A stretch of DNA of 56,626 nt, from contig JAGPKU010000008.1 in NCBI GenBank assembly GCA_018053845.1, positions 1 through 56,626 of the forward strand, in the 5' to 3' direction. The translations under genes and the position numbers were made by a program. This stretch comes from Syntrophobacterales bacterium (GTDB lineage: Bacteria > Desulfobacterota > Syntrophia > Syntrophales > UBA2192). The notes under the pieces were generated by a model. It saw nothing but the letters and a program-made list of their open reading frames with translations, searched no databases and was not told the origin of the DNA. How positions within the stretch are numbered: position 1 is the first letter of the stretch; every line of letters starts with the position of its first letter. Shown piece by piece: positions 15,045 to 21,927 of this stretch.

Positions 15045-15072
15045 ATCCCGCTTGAAAGGAGTGTCTCGAGAA

Positions 15073-15846
15073 ATGAAGATCGCCATCTCAACAGACGGCA
15101 ATTTCGTAGCCGCCCACTTCGGCCGTTGCCCGGCCTATACGCTGATCGACGTCGAAGACGGAAGGGTCACGGCCAGGGCAACGGTTCCGAACCCGGGCCA
15201 CCAGCCCGGTTTCATCCCCCGATTCCTTCACGAAAAGGGTGTCAACATGGTTTTGACCGGAGGGATGGGGCCCCGGGCGGAGGATATCTTTCAACAGCTG
15301 GGCATCAAGACCGTGCAGGGGGTGAGCGGGCCCGTCGATGATGTGATCCGGGCGTTCCTGGCCGGAACGCTCGAGGCCGGTCCGAGCGCCTGCGATCACC
15401 CCCACGGGGATCCTCACCATGACGCCCAGGCCGGGCGCGGGCAACCCGCGCAGCCGGCAGGGATCGGCGCGGCGGAAACGGGGACGGTCTGCGTCACGTC
15501 GGAGGGAAAGACCCTGGATTCGAACGTGGAGCCCCGGTTCGGCCGATGCCGTCATTTCCTCTTCGTGGACACGGCGACGATGCGCTTCGAGGCCGTCGAC
15601 AACGCCGCGGGCGGTGCCGCGGGCGGTGCCGGCATCCAGGCGGGCCAGCTGGTCGCATCCCGCGGCGCCAGGGCCGTCCTGACGGGAAACGTAGGTCCCA
15701 ACGCGTATCAGACCCTGCAGGCTGCCGGCATCGACATCTACACGGGGGCGTCCGGGACGGTTCGCGAGGCCGTGGAGAATTTCAAGAAAGGCGCCTACAG
15801 GAAGGCGGACAGTGCCACGGCCGGCGCAAAGTCGGGGATGCGATAG
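15073..15846 (+). CDS. Fused double NifX/NafY-like (dinitrogenase Fe-Mo cofactor biosynthesis) protein
   Basis: 257 aa made of two copies of the NifX/NafY-type fold. The first (about residues 1-108) starts MKIAISTDGNFVAAHFGRCP, and the second (about 140-245) includes LDSNVEPRFGRCRHFLFVD. Both have the AHFGRC/RFGRC turn and a GGMGP/GNVGP loop. The linker is rich in His, Asp and Gln (CDHPHGDPHHDAQ) and could bind metal. Stand-alone NifX-like proteins carry Fe-S or Fe-Mo cluster precursors. No nitrogenase gene is in the window, so a general Fe-S or metal-cluster carrier role is more likely. The start at 15073 is set by homology; the GGAG site is rather far. Confidence 0.85.
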   Translation: MKIAISTDGNFVAAHFGRCPAYTLIDVEDGRVTARATVPNPGHQPGFIPRFLHEKGVNMVLTGGMGPRAEDIFQQLGIKTVQGVSGPVDDVIRAFLAGTLEAGPSACDHPHGDPHHDAQAGRGQPAQPAGIGAAETGTVCVTSEGKTLDSNVEPRFGRCRHFLFVDTATMRFEAVDNAAGGAAGGAGIQAGQLVASRGARAVLTGNVGPNAYQTLQAAGIDIYTGASGTVREAVENFKKGAYRKADSATAGAKSGMR

Positions 15847-15865
15847 ACGGCACAGGAGGTCAGCC

Positions 15866-16129
15866 ATGCCGATTGGAAAAGGATCAGGACAGGGAGGCGG
15901 CCGCGGGACAGGCGGCGCAGGCCGCGCGGGCGGCGGAAGAGGCGGAGGGCACGGTGCAGGCGGAGGCGGAGGCCGCATGGGCGGCACCCGTGCAGGTGCC
16001 GGCCCCGGAGGAAACTGCCTGTGCCCGAACTGCGGGACGAAGGCTCCCCATACACCCGGCGTGCCCTGTTACACGGTGAAGTGTCCCGAGTGCGGGACAG
16101 CCATGGTGAGGGAACAGCCGCCATGGTGA
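15866..16129 (+). CDS. Gly-rich zinc-ribbon protein
   Basis: 87 aa. A Gly/Arg/Ala low-complexity N-terminal half (GGGRGTGG-type repeats) leads to a zinc-ribbon-like end with LCPNCGT and KCPECGT (two CxxC pairs), plus a Cys in GVPCYTV between them. AGGAGG stands before the ATG at 15866. The stop overlaps the next gene's start in ATGGTGA, indicating translational coupling with the first MinD-like ATPase. The function is unknown; a metal-handling or nucleic-acid-binding partner fits the neighbourhood. Confidence 0.8.
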   Translation: MPIGKGSGQGGGRGTGGAGRAGGGRGGGHGAGGGGGRMGGTRAGAGPGGNCLCPNCGTKAPHTPGVPCYTVKCPECGTAMVREQPPW

Positions 16130-17010
16130 TCGCCGTCGCAAGCGGAAAGGGCGGGACGGGCAAGACGACCGTGGCGGTCAACCTGGCCCGCGTGCTGGGG
16201 GATGTCCAGCTTCTCGACTGCGACGTGGAGGAGCCCAACGCCCATCTTTTCCTGAAGCCCGAGCTCACGGAGAAGACCCCGGCCCGGGTCATGGTGCCCG
16301 AGATCAATGAGGAGAAGTGCACCTACTGCGGGAAATGCGCGGAGGTCTGCGCCTTCAACGCGCTCGCCGTCATCCCCCCGAAGGCCGGACTCAAGGGCGG
16401 CGTTCTTGTCTTTCCGAATCTGTGCCACAGTTGCGGGGCCTGTTTCCTCCTTTGCCCGGAGGGTGCCGTCCGTGAGGTTCACCGGGAGATCGGCGCAGTC
16501 GAAGCAGGATGGGCTGGGGCCATCCGCTTCGTTCACGGCCGTCTGCATGTCGGCGAAGCCATGTCTCCCCCGCTGATCCGGCAGGTCAAGAAGCACATTG
16601 ACAGGACCCGGACGACCCTCATCGACGCGCCCCCGGGCACCTCGTGCCCGGTGATCAATGCCCTGGAAGGCAGTGACTACTGCCTGCTGGTGACGGAGCC
16701 GACCCCCTTCGGGCTCAACGACCTCATCCTTGCCGTCGAGGTCCTCCGGGTCATGGGGATCCCTCACGGGCTCGTCATCAACCGCTGCGACATCGGCGAT
16801 GACGGTGTGGAGTCCTATGCCAGGGACAACGGCATCCCGGTGCTGATGCGCATCCCCTTTGACCGGACGATCGCGGAGCTGTACTCCCGGGGGCTCAACA
16901 TCGTCGACCACAGCGAGGGCTACGCGAATCCATTCCGTGCCCTCTTCAAGGACATCGCGAATCATGCTGAAGCAAATCGTCATCATCAGCGGCAAGGGCG
17001 GCACGGGTAA
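16123..17010 (+). CDS. MinD/ParA-type ATPase with inserted 2x[4Fe-4S] ferredoxin domain (copy 1)
   Basis: 295 aa. The deviant Walker [11 protein letters not shown] (residues 7-16) is followed by an insertion of two CxxCxxCxxxC motifs (CTYCGKCAEVC and CHSCGACFLLC), then Walker B-like TLIDAPPGTSCPV and LVTEPTPFGL. The family is related to Mrp/Nbp35-type cluster carriers and is thought to handle Fe-S clusters or low-potential electrons with ATP use, but is biochemically poorly known. The start overlaps the zinc-ribbon gene by 7 bases, and its end overlaps the next ATPase gene by 47. Confidence 0.9.
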   Translation: MVIAVASGKGGTGKTTVAVNLARVLGDVQLLDCDVEEPNAHLFLKPELTEKTPARVMVPEINEEKCTYCGKCAEVCAFNALAVIPPKAGLKGGVLVFPNLCHSCGACFLLCPEGAVREVHREIGAVEAGWAGAIRFVHGRLHVGEAMSPPLIRQVKKHIDRTRTTLIDAPPGTSCPVINALEGSDYCLLVTEPTPFGLNDLILAVEVLRVMGIPHGLVINRCDIGDDGVESYARDNGIPVLMRIPFDRTIAELYSRGLNIVDHSEGYANPFRALFKDIANHAEANRHHQRQGRHG

Positions 17011-17854
17011 GACCGTCTTCACGGCGTCGCTTGCCGCCCTGGCGTCGAGGAAGGTCATGGTGGATTGCGACGTCGACGCGGCGGATCTGCACCTTCTGCT
17101 CAATCCCCGCATCGTCGAGACGCACGAATTCCGGGGAGGGAAAACGGCGCGCATCGACCCGGCCCTGTGTATCGGCTGCGGCAAGTGTGCCGAGTTGTGC
17201 CGTTTCGACGCGACCGAGGAGGGCGTCGACGCATTTTCCGTCGACCCCCTCGCCTGCGAGGGCTGCGGCCTTTGCGCCCGCATTTGTCCCGTCGACGCCG
17301 TCGTGATGGAGGAGCATCTCTCGGGTGAGTGGTATCGCTCGGAGACGGCCTACGGGCCTTTCGTCCACGCGAAACTGGGGATCGCCCAGGAGAATTCCGG
17401 CAAGCTCGTGGCCTGTATCCGGGAAGCGGCAAAAACGATTGCGCGATCGCTCGATCTGGATTACGTGATCATCGACGGTCCCCCGGGGATCGGCTGCCCC
17501 GTGCTGGCCTCGCTCACCGACACGGACCTTGCCGTCATCGTCACGGAGCCGAGCCTGTCGGGCATCCACGACGCGCGCCGCGTGATCGAACTGGCCCGGC
17601 ATTTCCGCATCCCCGCAGGCATCGTCATCAACAAGTGGGACATCAACCCGGAGCAGAGCCGGAATATCGAAGAACTGTGCTCGGAAGGGGTGAGCCTCCT
17701 GGGGCGTATTCCCTTCTCGAAGCAGGTGGCGGCATCCCTGATCAAGGCCAGGCCCTACGTCGAGACCGTGCAGGACGACGTCGCCGCCGCGATCCGCGCC
17801 GTCTGGGAAAAGATCGATTCCGAACCGGCGGGCAAGGATCGCCGGCCGTCATAG
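16964..17854 (+). CDS. MinD/ParA-type ATPase with inserted 2x[4Fe-4S] ferredoxin domain (copy 2)
   Basis: 296 aa paralogue of the preceding protein. It has Walker [11 protein letters not shown], two 4Fe-4S motifs ([11 protein letters not shown] and [11 protein letters not shown]), [10 protein letters not shown] and [14 protein letters not shown]. The two differ in sequence, so they probably form a heterodimer, as expected of paired genes of this family. The start at 16964 lies inside the end of copy 1 (47-base overlap), which suggests tightly coupled equimolar synthesis. It keeps the double-Lys signature of MinD ATPases. Confidence 0.9.
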
Positions 17855-17888
17855 GAAATCTCAGAAAGGAGTCAGACACCATCAACCC

Positions 17889-18707
17889 ATGAAACCGATC
17901 CAGATCCAAGAACCGAGGGACGAAGACAAGCAGCTCAAGGACCGGATGTCCCGGATCAAGCACAAGATCATCGTCATGAGCGGCAAGGGCGGGGTGGGGA
18001 AGACCTCGGTGGCCGTCAACCTGTCCTACACCCTGGCGAGGGCCGGCCGGGAGGTCGGCATTCTCGACATCGACCTCCACGGACCCAACATCGCCAAGAT
18101 GCTGGGCGTCGAGGGGCGGGGCCTCGTCGGGTCCGAAAACGGCATCGAGGCCGTTCGGGTGCTGCCCAACCTGAAGGCGGCCAGCATCGCCTTCGCGCTG
18201 CCCAGCGCGGACAACCCCATCGTGTGGCGCGGCCCCATGAAGGCCAACGCCATCCGTCAGTTTCTCGAGGAGGTGAACTGGGGCGAACTGGACTTCCTGA
18301 TCGTCGACTCGCCGCCCGGCACGGGCGACGAGCCGCTGAGCGCCTGCCAGCTCATCCCGAATGTCAGCGGGGCCGTGATCGTGACCACCCCCCAGGACGT
18401 CTCGATCGTCGACGCGCGCAAGAGCGTGTTCTTCGCCCGCCAGCTCAAGATCCCCGTTCTCGGGATCATCGAGAACATGAGCGGCTTCGTCTGCCCGCAC
18501 TGCGGCAAAGAGACGCCGATCTTCAAGAAGGGCGGCGGCGAGAAGGCCGCGAAGGACCTCGGCGTCCCCTTCCTGGGGCGGATCCCCTTCGAGCCGGATC
18601 TGGTCGAGATGGCCGACCGGGGGCTCCCTTTTGTCCAGTCCCAGAAGGACTCGCCGTCGGCGGCGGCATTTCAGGAGATCGTGAGGAAGATCGTGACCTC
18701 CCTCTGA
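17889..18707 (+). CDS. Mrp/NBP35-type Fe-S cluster carrier ATPase
   Basis: 272 aa. Walker [11 protein letters not shown] (residues 31-40), a switch region ([14 protein letters not shown]), [17 protein letters not shown], and a late CPHC motif that bridges an [4Fe-4S] cluster between two subunits in Mrp/Nbp35 dimers. It should load Fe-S clusters onto apo-proteins in the cytosol. It lacks the DUF59 domain of some longer Mrp proteins. It lies 34 bases behind the second ferredoxin-ATPase, so the block has three related ATPases in a row. The ribosome site AAAGGAG is distant (about 17 bases) from the chosen ATG. Confidence 0.93.
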
Positions 18708-18735
18708 GATGCTGTCGGATCAAAGGTGCGCAACC

Positions 18736-18975
18736 ATGCCGATTTACGAGTATCAATGCGGGAACTGCGGCGAGCTGTCGGAATTCCTGATCAACGGCAG
18801 CGGGCGGGATCAGCCGGTCACCTGCCGGATGTGCGACAGCGATGACATGAAGCGGGTCCTCTCTCGGAGCGTCGTCGGCCGAAGCCGGGGTCCATCGGGC
18901 GGTCGCACCTGTTGCGGACGGGACGAACGATGCGGTCGGCCGCCCTGCGGCGGGGAGGGCCGTTGCGATCGGTGA
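18736..18975 (+). CDS. FmdB-like zinc-ribbon protein
   Basis: 79 aa starting MPIYEYQCGNCG, the FmdB-type regulatory zinc-ribbon signature, with the second pair in CRMCDSDD. The C-terminal tail is extended, with extra cysteines (TCCGRDERCGRPPCGGEGRC) that could bind metal. AAAGGTG lies 8 bases upstream. It belongs to the same co-directional block. The function of the family is unclear despite its name. Confidence 0.85.
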   Translation: MPIYEYQCGNCGELSEFLINGSGRDQPVTCRMCDSDDMKRVLSRSVVGRSRGPSGGRTCCGRDERCGRPPCGGEGRCDR

Positions 18976-19088
18976 TCGAGGCGGGACCCTCGATGCCGTC
19001 CGACATCGCACAGGCCCGGTTGCTTTCATGGGCCGATTGTGCTTAAGGATGAGAACAAGCACGACCGGTCGGAAGGGTCCCTGTCTCG

Positions 19089-19526
19089 ATGGAACGTGAC
19101 GCGGAAACGATACGGGCGCTGCTGGAGATGCTCTTCCAGCGGACCGGCAGGCGCTACTCGGAGAAACTGATTAGGCTCGGGACGGACGCGACGAACAACC
19201 GCCGCATCGAAAAGCCCGACGGCTACGCGATGCTCACGGGCGAGTGCGGCGACACGGTGGAGTTCTTTCTCCGGGTGGCCGACGGGAAGATCGAGGATGC
19301 CGCCTTTACGATCGACGGCTGCATCTCCGCCTTCGCGTCGATGGCCGCCGCGGCCGAGATGGCGCGGGGCAGGACCCTGCGGGGCTGCCTGAACATCAAT
19401 CAGAGCGCCATCGCGGAGTATCTCGGCGGGATGCCCGAGGAGGACCGCCACTGCGCCCTGCTGGCGGCCCGGGCCCTCCAGAAGGCCCTGCGGGACTATG
19501 CCGTCGGGAAAACGCGGAAAGGCTGA
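19089..19526 (+). CDS. NifU/IscU-like Fe-S cluster scaffold
   Basis: 145 aa. The three scaffold cysteines are in place: GECGDT (Cys53, with the usual Asp two residues on), DGCISAFAS (Cys78) and RHCALLAARAL (Cys122). An additional Cys100 lies between them. It should assemble Fe-S clusters for delivery to targets. No IscS-type desulfurase gene is in the window. It follows the FmdB-like gene by 113 bases and is 7 bases from TrmO. Confidence 0.9.
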   Translation: MERDAETIRALLEMLFQRTGRRYSEKLIRLGTDATNNRRIEKPDGYAMLTGECGDTVEFFLRVADGKIEDAAFTIDGCISAFASMAAAAEMARGRTLRGCLNINQSAIAEYLGGMPEEDRHCALLAARALQKALRDYAVGKTRKG

Positions 19527-19533
19527 ACAGGCG

Positions 19534-20043
19534 ATGCAGGAGATCCGTTACCGGCCCATCGGGGTCATCCGCACCCCGTTTGCGTCCCCCGAAGGCGTTC
19601 CGATCCGGCCGGCGGCCGCGAAGGGCGTCGTGGGGAGGGTTGAACTGGATCCCGGGCTGGCGGATGGGTTGAAGGACCTCGACGGTTTTTCCCATGTCAT
19701 CCTGATTTACCATTTCCACACGGCCAAGCCGGCGATGCTGAGGGTGAAACCCTACATGGACAGTGTCGAGCGGGGGGTCTTCGCGACGAGAAGCCCCGCA
19801 CGAACCAACGCGATAGGGATCTCGGTCGTCCGCCTGCTCGGGGTCGAGAAGAACGCCCTCCGGGTCGAGAATGTCGACATCGTCGACGGCACCCCCCTGC
19901 TGGACATCAAGCCCTACGTCCCCCAGTTCGACGGGGCGGAGGACGTGAGGATCGGCTGGCTGCAGGACAACGTCGGAAAGCTCGATCACACCCGGGACGA
20001 CGGACGCTTCGGCGTGGAGACCGGATCCGTGAAATCCGAATGA
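19534..20043 (+). CDS. trmO: TrmO-like tRNA (N6-threonylcarbamoyladenosine-37) methyltransferase
   Basis: 169 aa of the single-domain beta-barrel TrmO (VirR/YaeB) family. It starts RYRPIGVIRTPF, then has GFSHVILIYHFH, FATRSPARTNAIGISVVRL and DIVDGTPLLDIKPYVPQFD, all hallmarks. The enzyme methylates t6A37 in tRNA using SAM. Its place between Fe-S genes is common in anaerobes, where this short form may have another substrate. The start at 19534 is chosen by homology; it lies 7 bases after the scaffold gene. Confidence 0.85.
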   Translation: MQEIRYRPIGVIRTPFASPEGVPIRPAAAKGVVGRVELDPGLADGLKDLDGFSHVILIYHFHTAKPAMLRVKPYMDSVERGVFATRSPARTNAIGISVVRLLGVEKNALRVENVDIVDGTPLLDIKPYVPQFDGAEDVRIGWLQDNVGKLDHTRDDGRFGVETGSVKSE

Positions 20044-20083
20044 CATCCAATGCTGGAATTCTACTGAGGAAGGGAGAGAGATC

Positions 20084-21109
20084 ATGTTCCACGAGGAAAG
20101 ATGTGACTTTTGCGGAGACTGCCTGGCGCGGTGCAAGTACCTGGACTTCGACAAGGAGAGCGGGTCGGCGGCGATGCGGAAGCTCGTTGCGGGCGAGAAG
20201 TCCGACTGGATCTACGACTGTGTGACCTGCATGGCCTGCGACGAGTACTGCCCGACGAATGCCCGGCCTTTCGATCTCATCATCAGGCGGATGGAGGAGG
20301 CGGGCGATTTCACCGACCCGAAGCTGCGCGCCGACATGGCGGAGCGGTTCAAGCCCGAGGGCGAACCGAAACCGGTCAAGCCCGCCGAGCGCGTCATGTC
20401 GATCTGTGTCATGCAGGGCAATATGCCCTGGGCCATCCAGGGGCAGATCTTCGAGACGATCCCCCTGCTCAAGGGGAAGCACTACTTCTGCAACGTTCTC
20501 TTTTCCCACATGGGCGACGAGTCGATCCTGCGGGAGCGCCTCCAGGGGATGATCGACAACCTGGCCAAGTCCGGTGCCAAGGAGATCGTCTTCCTGCACG
20601 ACGACTGCTACGCGGCCATCAAGGGCATCGCCCCCGAGCTGGGGATCAAGATCCCGTTCAAGCCGATCCACCTCTTCGAGCACCTCCGGGACGTCCTGAA
20701 GGAGAAGAAGGGGAGCCTGAAGAAGCTCGACATGAAGGTCGCCTACCAGCGGCCCTGCGCCTCGCGCTACACGCCCGAGAAGGACCCCGTCGTCGACGAG
20801 ATCTTCGAACTCGTCGGCGTGAAACGCATGAAGCGGCAGTACGAGGGCGAGGATGCCCTGTGCTGCGGCGTGGAGGTGGCGGGCCCGGGCCTCAAGCTCT
20901 TCCCCCGCGGAAAGAACTACGAGCCCTTCCGGGTGAAGAACGTCGAGGACGCGAAGGCCAGCGGGGCCGAGGCGATGGTGTACCTCTGCCCGATGTGCTT
21001 CACGATCCTCAACAAGAAGGTCCGCGAGGCGGGCATGAAGAACTACATGATCAGTGACCTCTGCCGCCTCGCCCTCGGCGAGGAGCTTCCGGCGGACAGG
21101 CCGCAGTGA
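20084..21109 (+). CDS. Fe-S oxidoreductase with 2x[4Fe-4S] and a CCG (HdrB/GlcF-type) domain
   Basis: 341 aa. Two N-terminal cluster motifs (CDFCGDCLARC and CVTCMACDEYC) are followed by a cysteine-rich CCG-type domain with RPCASR, ALCCGVEVAG and LCPMCF. The earlier would-be CCG repeat is reduced to HDDCYAAI. Proteins of this kind (HdrB/D, GlcF, LutA-like) pass electrons between Fe-S carriers, flavoproteins and thiol-disulfide couples. No catalytic flavoprotein is adjacent, so it may serve the peroxiredoxin that follows or an unlinked partner. AAGGGAGAGAG lies before the ATG. Confidence 0.88.
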   Translation: MFHEERCDFCGDCLARCKYLDFDKESGSAAMRKLVAGEKSDWIYDCVTCMACDEYCPTNARPFDLIIRRMEEAGDFTDPKLRADMAERFKPEGEPKPVKPAERVMSICVMQGNMPWAIQGQIFETIPLLKGKHYFCNVLFSHMGDESILRERLQGMIDNLAKSGAKEIVFLHDDCYAAIKGIAPELGIKIPFKPIHLFEHLRDVLKEKKGSLKKLDMKVAYQRPCASRYTPEKDPVVDEIFELVGVKRMKRQYEGEDALCCGVEVAGPGLKLFPRGKNYEPFRVKNVEDAKASGAEAMVYLCPMCFTILNKKVREAGMKNYMISDLCRLALGEELPADRPQ

Positions 21110-21169: not shown

Positions 21170-21198
21170 ACATCATCTGAAGAAAGGAGGTGGACCCA

Positions 21199-21927
21199 TT
21201 GGTCGAAGAGGAAATCAAGGCAGGCTGTGCGAGGCCGACAGGGGGGCTCGTCGGCGAGGAGCCTCCAGGGGATCAACCAACTGAAGCGACGGAGCCTAAA
21301 AAGGAGGTGAGGTCCATGATCATGATCGGCAGGAAGGCGCCCGATTTCATGGCGCCGGGGTATTTCCAGGGCAAGTTCATCAACGTACATCTCTCGGACT
21401 ACCTGGGCAAATGGGTGCTTCTCTGCTTCTACCCGGGGGATTTCACCTTCGTCTGAGCAACGGAGATATCGGCGGTCGCCGATCGATACGCGGAATTCGA
21501 GAAACTCGGGGTCCAGGTGCTCACGATGAGCATCGACAGCGTCTTCGTCCACAAGATGTGGGTGGACCACGAGATCTCCAAGATGGTCAAGAAGGGGGTC
21601 GTTCCCTACCCGATGCTCTCCGACGTGGGGGGCAAGGTGGGGACGGCCTACGGCGTCTTTGATGACATGGCCGGGGTGGAGACCCGCGGCCGCTTCATCA
21701 TCGACCCCGACGGGGTGATCCAGGGCTACGAGGTGCTGACCCCGCCGGTGGGGCGAAACGTCTCGGAGAGCATTCGCCAGGTGCAGGCCTTCCAGCACGT
21801 GCGCAACAGCGGCGGAACGGAGGCCACTCCCTCCGGCTGGCGTCCCGGAAAGCTCACGCTCAAACCGGGGCCCGACCTGGTCGGCAACGTCTGGAAAGTG
21901 TGGAAGACCGAGATGGAACGGGATTGA
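21199..21927 (+). CDS. Selenocysteine-containing peroxiredoxin (in-frame UGA at the peroxidatic position)
   Basis: 242 aa if the TGA at 21454-21456 is read as selenocysteine (residue 86). The frame runs [19 protein letters not shown], exactly where AhpC/Prx proteins have the peroxidatic Cys, and stays open and well conserved to 21927 ([27 protein letters not shown]). A bacterial SECIS-like hairpin follows the UGA. The protein should reduce hydroperoxides in the cytosol. Two starts are possible: TTG 21199 (after AAAGGAGGT, adding a segment with CARPTGG) or ATG 21316 (after AAAAAGGAGGTG), which would make Sec residue 47. I favour the longer because a promoter lies just upstream. Sequencing error or pseudogene is unlikely given the exact site. 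Confidence 0.9.
21454..21483 (+). promoter_or_regulatory. Selenocysteine UGA and SECIS-like hairpin
   Basis: After the UGA, ATCGGC-GGTC-GCCGAT (21468-21483) forms a 6-bp stem with a GGUC loop. The loop lies 18-21 bases past the UGA, the distance needed for SelB recognition, and has the G-U core seen in the E. coli fdhF loop. Confidence 0.75.

Follow-up and report, generated by a model that had tools for sequence, protein, structure and literature searches.

The gene at positions 21199–21927 on the plus strand of the window (the whole 56,626-nucleotide stretch of DNA that was analysed) is almost certainly prxU, predicted to encode a SelB-dependent selenocysteine (Sec) peroxiredoxin of the AhpC/Prx1 fold. 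In this main respect it is ordinary, being a member of the known PrxU family and an ordinary selenoprotein for its phylum. Conservation among relatives further suggests that (i) an internal start codon is used, so that the gene probably makes two nested proteins, both containing Sec, and (ii) Cys10 may be a relocated resolving Cys for the selenenic acid formed at Sec86, a proposal that we regard as evenly balanced. We found no earlier description of the conserved second start or of the likely exchange of resolving Cys, each of which we infer to hold across the family.

The reading frame opens with TTG, which is preceded by GGAGG at a distance of 8 nt, and runs through a TGA at codon 86 to a terminal TGA; it is otherwise open to either side of codon 86. 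The basic features of the gene are:

21199–21927, plus strand: prxU long form, with TTG start, Sec at codon 86, and 242 residues plus stop.
21185–21191, plus strand: Shine–Dalgarno (SD) sequence AGGAGGT of the upstream start, from sequence; an upstream-start SD is present in 94% of relatives.
21454–21456, plus strand: UGA read as Sec at the peroxidatic position (Sec86), from the frame and the conserved TGA of relatives.

The product matches the Pfam families AhpC-TSA (2e-37) and 1-cysPrx_C, aligns to solved 2-Cys peroxiredoxins with an E-value of about 1e-49, and its model superimposes on 5zte with a Foldseek TMt of 0.87. Both the AhpC/Prx1 fold and the PxxxTxxC/U active site are present. The open frame and the alignment to solved 2-Cys enzymes bear out the first-pass annotation, which had placed the TGA at the peroxidatic Cys codon of an otherwise intact peroxiredoxin.

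That annotation had also proposed an alignment to PrxU-type proteins, and the product indeed matches NCBIfam NF040737 (peroxi_PrxU) over the whole model (positions 2–233 of 233) with 407.1 bits, where the curated cut-off is 270. Because the model takes in the CARPTGG extension, the N-terminally extended form is the standard one, and its description as less familiar was mistaken; a CARPTGG-type extension together with the TGA was found in every one of the best 80 loci of a named-genome scan, among them those of the cultured hosts Desulfosarcina widdelii (L239) and Desulfatibacillum alkenivorans (L235). As judged by record titles, mostly of metagenome-assembled genomes and therefore to be read with caution, these 80 loci belong to Desulfobacterota and relatives, Nitrospirota, Spirochaetota, Calditrichota, Fibrobacterota, Cloacimonadota, Chloroflexota and others. 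Within the phylum, the NF040737 cut-off is passed in 130 of 395 genomes, nearly all with one in-frame TGA. The same genome also holds a distant Cys-type peroxiredoxin (L157; G000:C65:5866-6459) with the motifs FTCVCPTE and PCGW, whose related group has Sec forms as well.

Sec peroxiredoxins are known in anaerobic bacteria, as the first-pass annotation stated, and date back to 2001–2006. A Sec-peroxiredoxin with a TxxU site was catalogued in 2006 in Syntrophus, Syntrophobacter, Geobacter metallireducens and Anaeromyxobacter (PMC1794560), TxxU Sec-peroxiredoxins appear again in a 2026 review (PMC13188914), and the enzyme of Eubacterium acidaminophilum goes back to Sohling 2001, as cited in PMC8533274. 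In the parts of these texts that were covered, we found mention of neither a second start nor an N-terminal resolving Cys. The internal start and the missing canonical resolving Cys were likewise both absent from the first-pass annotation.

Two features bear on how the selenenic acid would be resolved:

21226–21246, plus strand: CARPTGG motif with the invariant Cys10, a candidate resolving Cys; Cys is found in 168 of 168 relatives.
21823–21840, plus strand: ATPSGW in place of the typical resolving-Cys motif VCPxxW, from alignment.

Judged from its codons, the N-terminal extension is translated, since Cys10 is kept in all 168 relatives while its codon varies (TGT in 92, TGC in 76) and the third positions around it are free; the 168 sequences were picked by Cys10, so that the invariance arises partly by selection, which leaves the codon freedom unaffected. 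Residues 1–37 are predicted to be disordered in the model, and the disorder stops just before Met40.

Typical AhpC/Prx1 enzymes achieve resolution through the Cys of a C-terminal VCPxxW motif. In this PrxU, the C-terminal resolving Cys (VCP motif), by which a typical 2-Cys AhpC/Prx1 enzyme is recognized, is absent, the ATPSGW segment standing at its position. Among 148 homologues, the canonical resolving Cys is missing in 101 of the 107 N-extended members as against 22 of the 41 non-extended ones, in a tally in which MCVRPG starts were not counted as N-terminal Cys; six N-extended members hold both the N-terminal and the canonical Cys. The 19 remaining non-extended members have the canonical Cys, and many of the 22 without it carry another Cys in the C-terminal region. 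Two members nested in the extended clade (L108 and L109) carry a stop codon in place of the extension, begin at the internal ATG with its former SD, and show a CPAGW motif. With the extension lost and the canonical resolving Cys present, they represent a natural reversal.

The near-complete lack of the canonical Cys in extended members and its presence in the lineage that lost the extension suggest that Cys10 acts as the resolver. The association between Cys10 and the canonical Cys involves few independent changes, and tree-based independent pairs gave too few informative contrasts. We weighed the reading that the N-terminal Cys is not the resolver of Sec86 but serves as a docking or modification site, with Cys76 or an external thiol resolving the selenenic acid instead. 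Cys76 tracks the extension, occurring in 105 of 107 extended members as against 10 of the 41 others, which favors such a role; yet L108 and L109 retain Cys76 and nevertheless carry the canonical Cys, so Cys76 probably does not suffice as a resolving Cys. External resolution does exist in the family, since four non-extended members lack every one of the tabulated Cys. Against this reading stands the invariance of Cys10 in the 168 extended members, on a flexible tether. We judge this reading to fall just short of an even chance. For Cys10 as the resolver, we found no clear precedent: among the titles and abstracts listed in a search of mostly open literature, none clearly described an AhpC/Prx1 enzyme whose resolving Cys is N-terminal.

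The second start is defined by two features inside the coding sequence:

21301–21308, plus strand: internal SD AAGGAGGT; such an SD is found in 96% of genes as against 25–32% of synonymous recodings.
21316–21318, plus strand: internal ATG (Met40), at which the short form is proposed to begin; its GGAGG precedes it, ending at a distance of 8 nt, and non-extended relatives have their start codon at this position.

With almost no exceptions, the codons preceding Met40 read AAGGAGG(T) in extended members. We scored an internal SD as GGAGG or AGGAG within 18 nt of Met40 and used synonymous recoding with each gene's own codons as the null. By this measure, the SD is present in 96% of 106 genes of the phylum set, compared with 32% in the synonymous null and 10% at other internal Met codons of the same genes. 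In the 72 named loci analysed, which share overlapping lineages with the phylum set and are thus not fully independent of it, the value is again 96%, compared with 25% in the null. Anti-SD duplex energies average −11.8 kcal/mol at the internal start, which makes its SD as strong as that of the upstream start (−11.7 kcal/mol). In eight genes, the GGAGG before Met40 sits in another codon frame, which indicates that the nucleotides themselves are kept; the internal SD and start codon within the frame thus carry a signature of selection at the nucleotide level.

An alternative is that PrxU is made as the long form only, and that the internal GGAGG is either a relic of the start used before the extension arose or a translational pause site. 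Since non-extended relatives start at the codon equivalent to Met40, an inherited SD would be expected initially, and lysine and glutamate codons partly generate the motif, as the 32% in the null reflects. A relic ought to decay, however, whereas the motif persists in 96% of relatives with protein identities down to 56%, including those in which it occupies another codon frame; pausing, for its part, leaves the constant ATG and spacing unexplained. Based on these observations, we consider production of the long form only to be rather unlikely, and favor use of both starts. A search of mostly open literature returned no paper on an internal start in such a gene.

Decoding of the UGA as Sec is supported by the Sec machinery of the genome, by relatives with TGA at the same codon and by a covarying hairpin:

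21468–21483, plus strand: SECIS hairpin with a 6-bp stem and GGUC loop (21474–21477); it has comparative support and is not significant alone.

The first-pass annotation had proposed a search for selA, selB, selC and selD, and all four are present in the genome (96.6% complete), selC being a tRNA-Sec with a UCA anticodon. The selD gene (L011; G000:C63:1316-2239, minus strand) scores above its cut-off, has an in-frame TGA and reads GAGUACK, and is thus a selenoprotein gene too, as is common for selD in this phylum.

The hairpin, AUCGGC-GGUC-GCCGAU, has the position and shape that the first-pass annotation gave it, its loop comprising bases +18 to +21 past the UGA. A single sequence lends it no support, because its folding energy is no better than that of shuffled sequences (z = +0.83). 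An Rfam scan over the whole window returned zero family matches. Comparison of relatives, by contrast, strongly supports a SECIS hairpin that is conserved and covarying family-wide. Under a criterion requiring a G to open the apical loop and the loop to start 14–26 nt after the UGA, the hairpin is found in 94% of 191 distinct UGA-containing homologues, in 32% of synonymous recodings, and in none of 12 Cys homologues. Across the 191 homologues, complementarity in the six stem pairs reaches 96%, compared with 28–35% when they are slid. Because the homologues are related, they do not count as separate events, yet this relatedness is equally present in both controls, slid and synonymous. Covariation occurs at synonymous third positions, with UA, GC, CG and AU at pair 12–27 and GC, AU, CG and UA at pair 15–24. 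The apical loop is AGUU in 112 homologues and GGUC in 74; its outer bases occupy two synonymous sites and covary. One N-extended member with Cys replacing Sec (L093) lacks the hairpin, as do the other Cys homologues. Among other frames in the window, no candidate for a TGA with a hairpin was convincing by eye.

Although the assembly is a draft of 162 contigs, the idea that the TGA is a true stop, a sequencing error or the mark of a decaying gene, leaving an 85-residue fragment, can be dismissed as wildly improbable, given the same TGA across many genomes with conservation on either side, the covarying hairpin and the Sec machinery. Conservation rules out both sequencing error and a pseudogene, the former because the TGA recurs in another genome of the genus and in a named locus with 94% identity.

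The surroundings of prxU were inspected at 103 loci, where no conserved single partner gene was found. By names assigned by eye, the neighbours include FAD/NADH oxidase-like (12), PrxQ-like (9), ferritin-like (6), KatG (5), Fur/PerR-like (5) and Hcp-like (5) genes. The flanks of loci L160–L239 often contain peroxide-stress-like genes (NADH oxidase-like, PrxQ-like, KatG, Fur/PerR-like and ferritin-like), again by eye. In the window, translations read by eye show a run of Mrp/NubP-like ATPases with ferredoxin motifs 5′ of prxU (15052–21109), and a Cys-rich HdrB-like Fe-S protein at 20084–21109.

We propose that Sec86 would reduce peroxides and thereby become a selenenic acid. Cys10 of the long form, on its disordered N-terminal tether, would replace the lost C-terminal resolving Cys and form a selenenylsulfide with Sec86, to be opened by a thioredoxin-like reductant. 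The second ribosome-binding site, just 5′ of Met40, would yield the short form without Cys10, which would depend for its resolution on an external thiol or on a long-form partner within the oligomer. Taken as a whole, this would make prxU, across several phyla, a conserved dual-start selenoprotein gene in which the relative use of the two starts determines what proportion of the subunits in an oligomer resolve themselves and what proportion are resolved externally and possibly signal; the sequences hint at this complete picture, which we put forward tentatively, at somewhat less than even odds. If the dual start is true, it would be a widely conserved instance of a single bacterial gene giving two enzyme forms that differ by one redox Cys. 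If the Cys swap is true, the resolving residue would lie at the N-terminus, a location that we did not find described for the AhpC/Prx1 class.

The proposed pair of products has a parallel in the N-terminal proteoform pairs of Salmonella (Ribo-RET; PMC11005335), which likewise are two nested products of in-frame initiation; those were seen by ribosome profiling, whereas the PrxU pair is deduced from conservation alone, and in a selenoprotein. The catalogued Sec-peroxiredoxins of Deltaproteobacteria, Clostridia and E. acidaminophilum share with it Sec at the peroxidatic site and the T-x-x-U motif. The likeness to NF040737 is full-length, including the N-terminal extension, and reveals no protein difference; being a protein model, it includes neither the conserved start inside the gene nor the covariation of the SECIS hairpin. 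Its annotation is that of a thioredoxin-dependent peroxiredoxin, an activity that is predicted for this PrxU. Finally, typical 2-Cys AhpC/Prx1 enzymes (5zte, human Prx2) have the same fold and active site as PrxU, which differs from them in having Sec for the peroxidatic Cys and no C-terminal resolving Cys.
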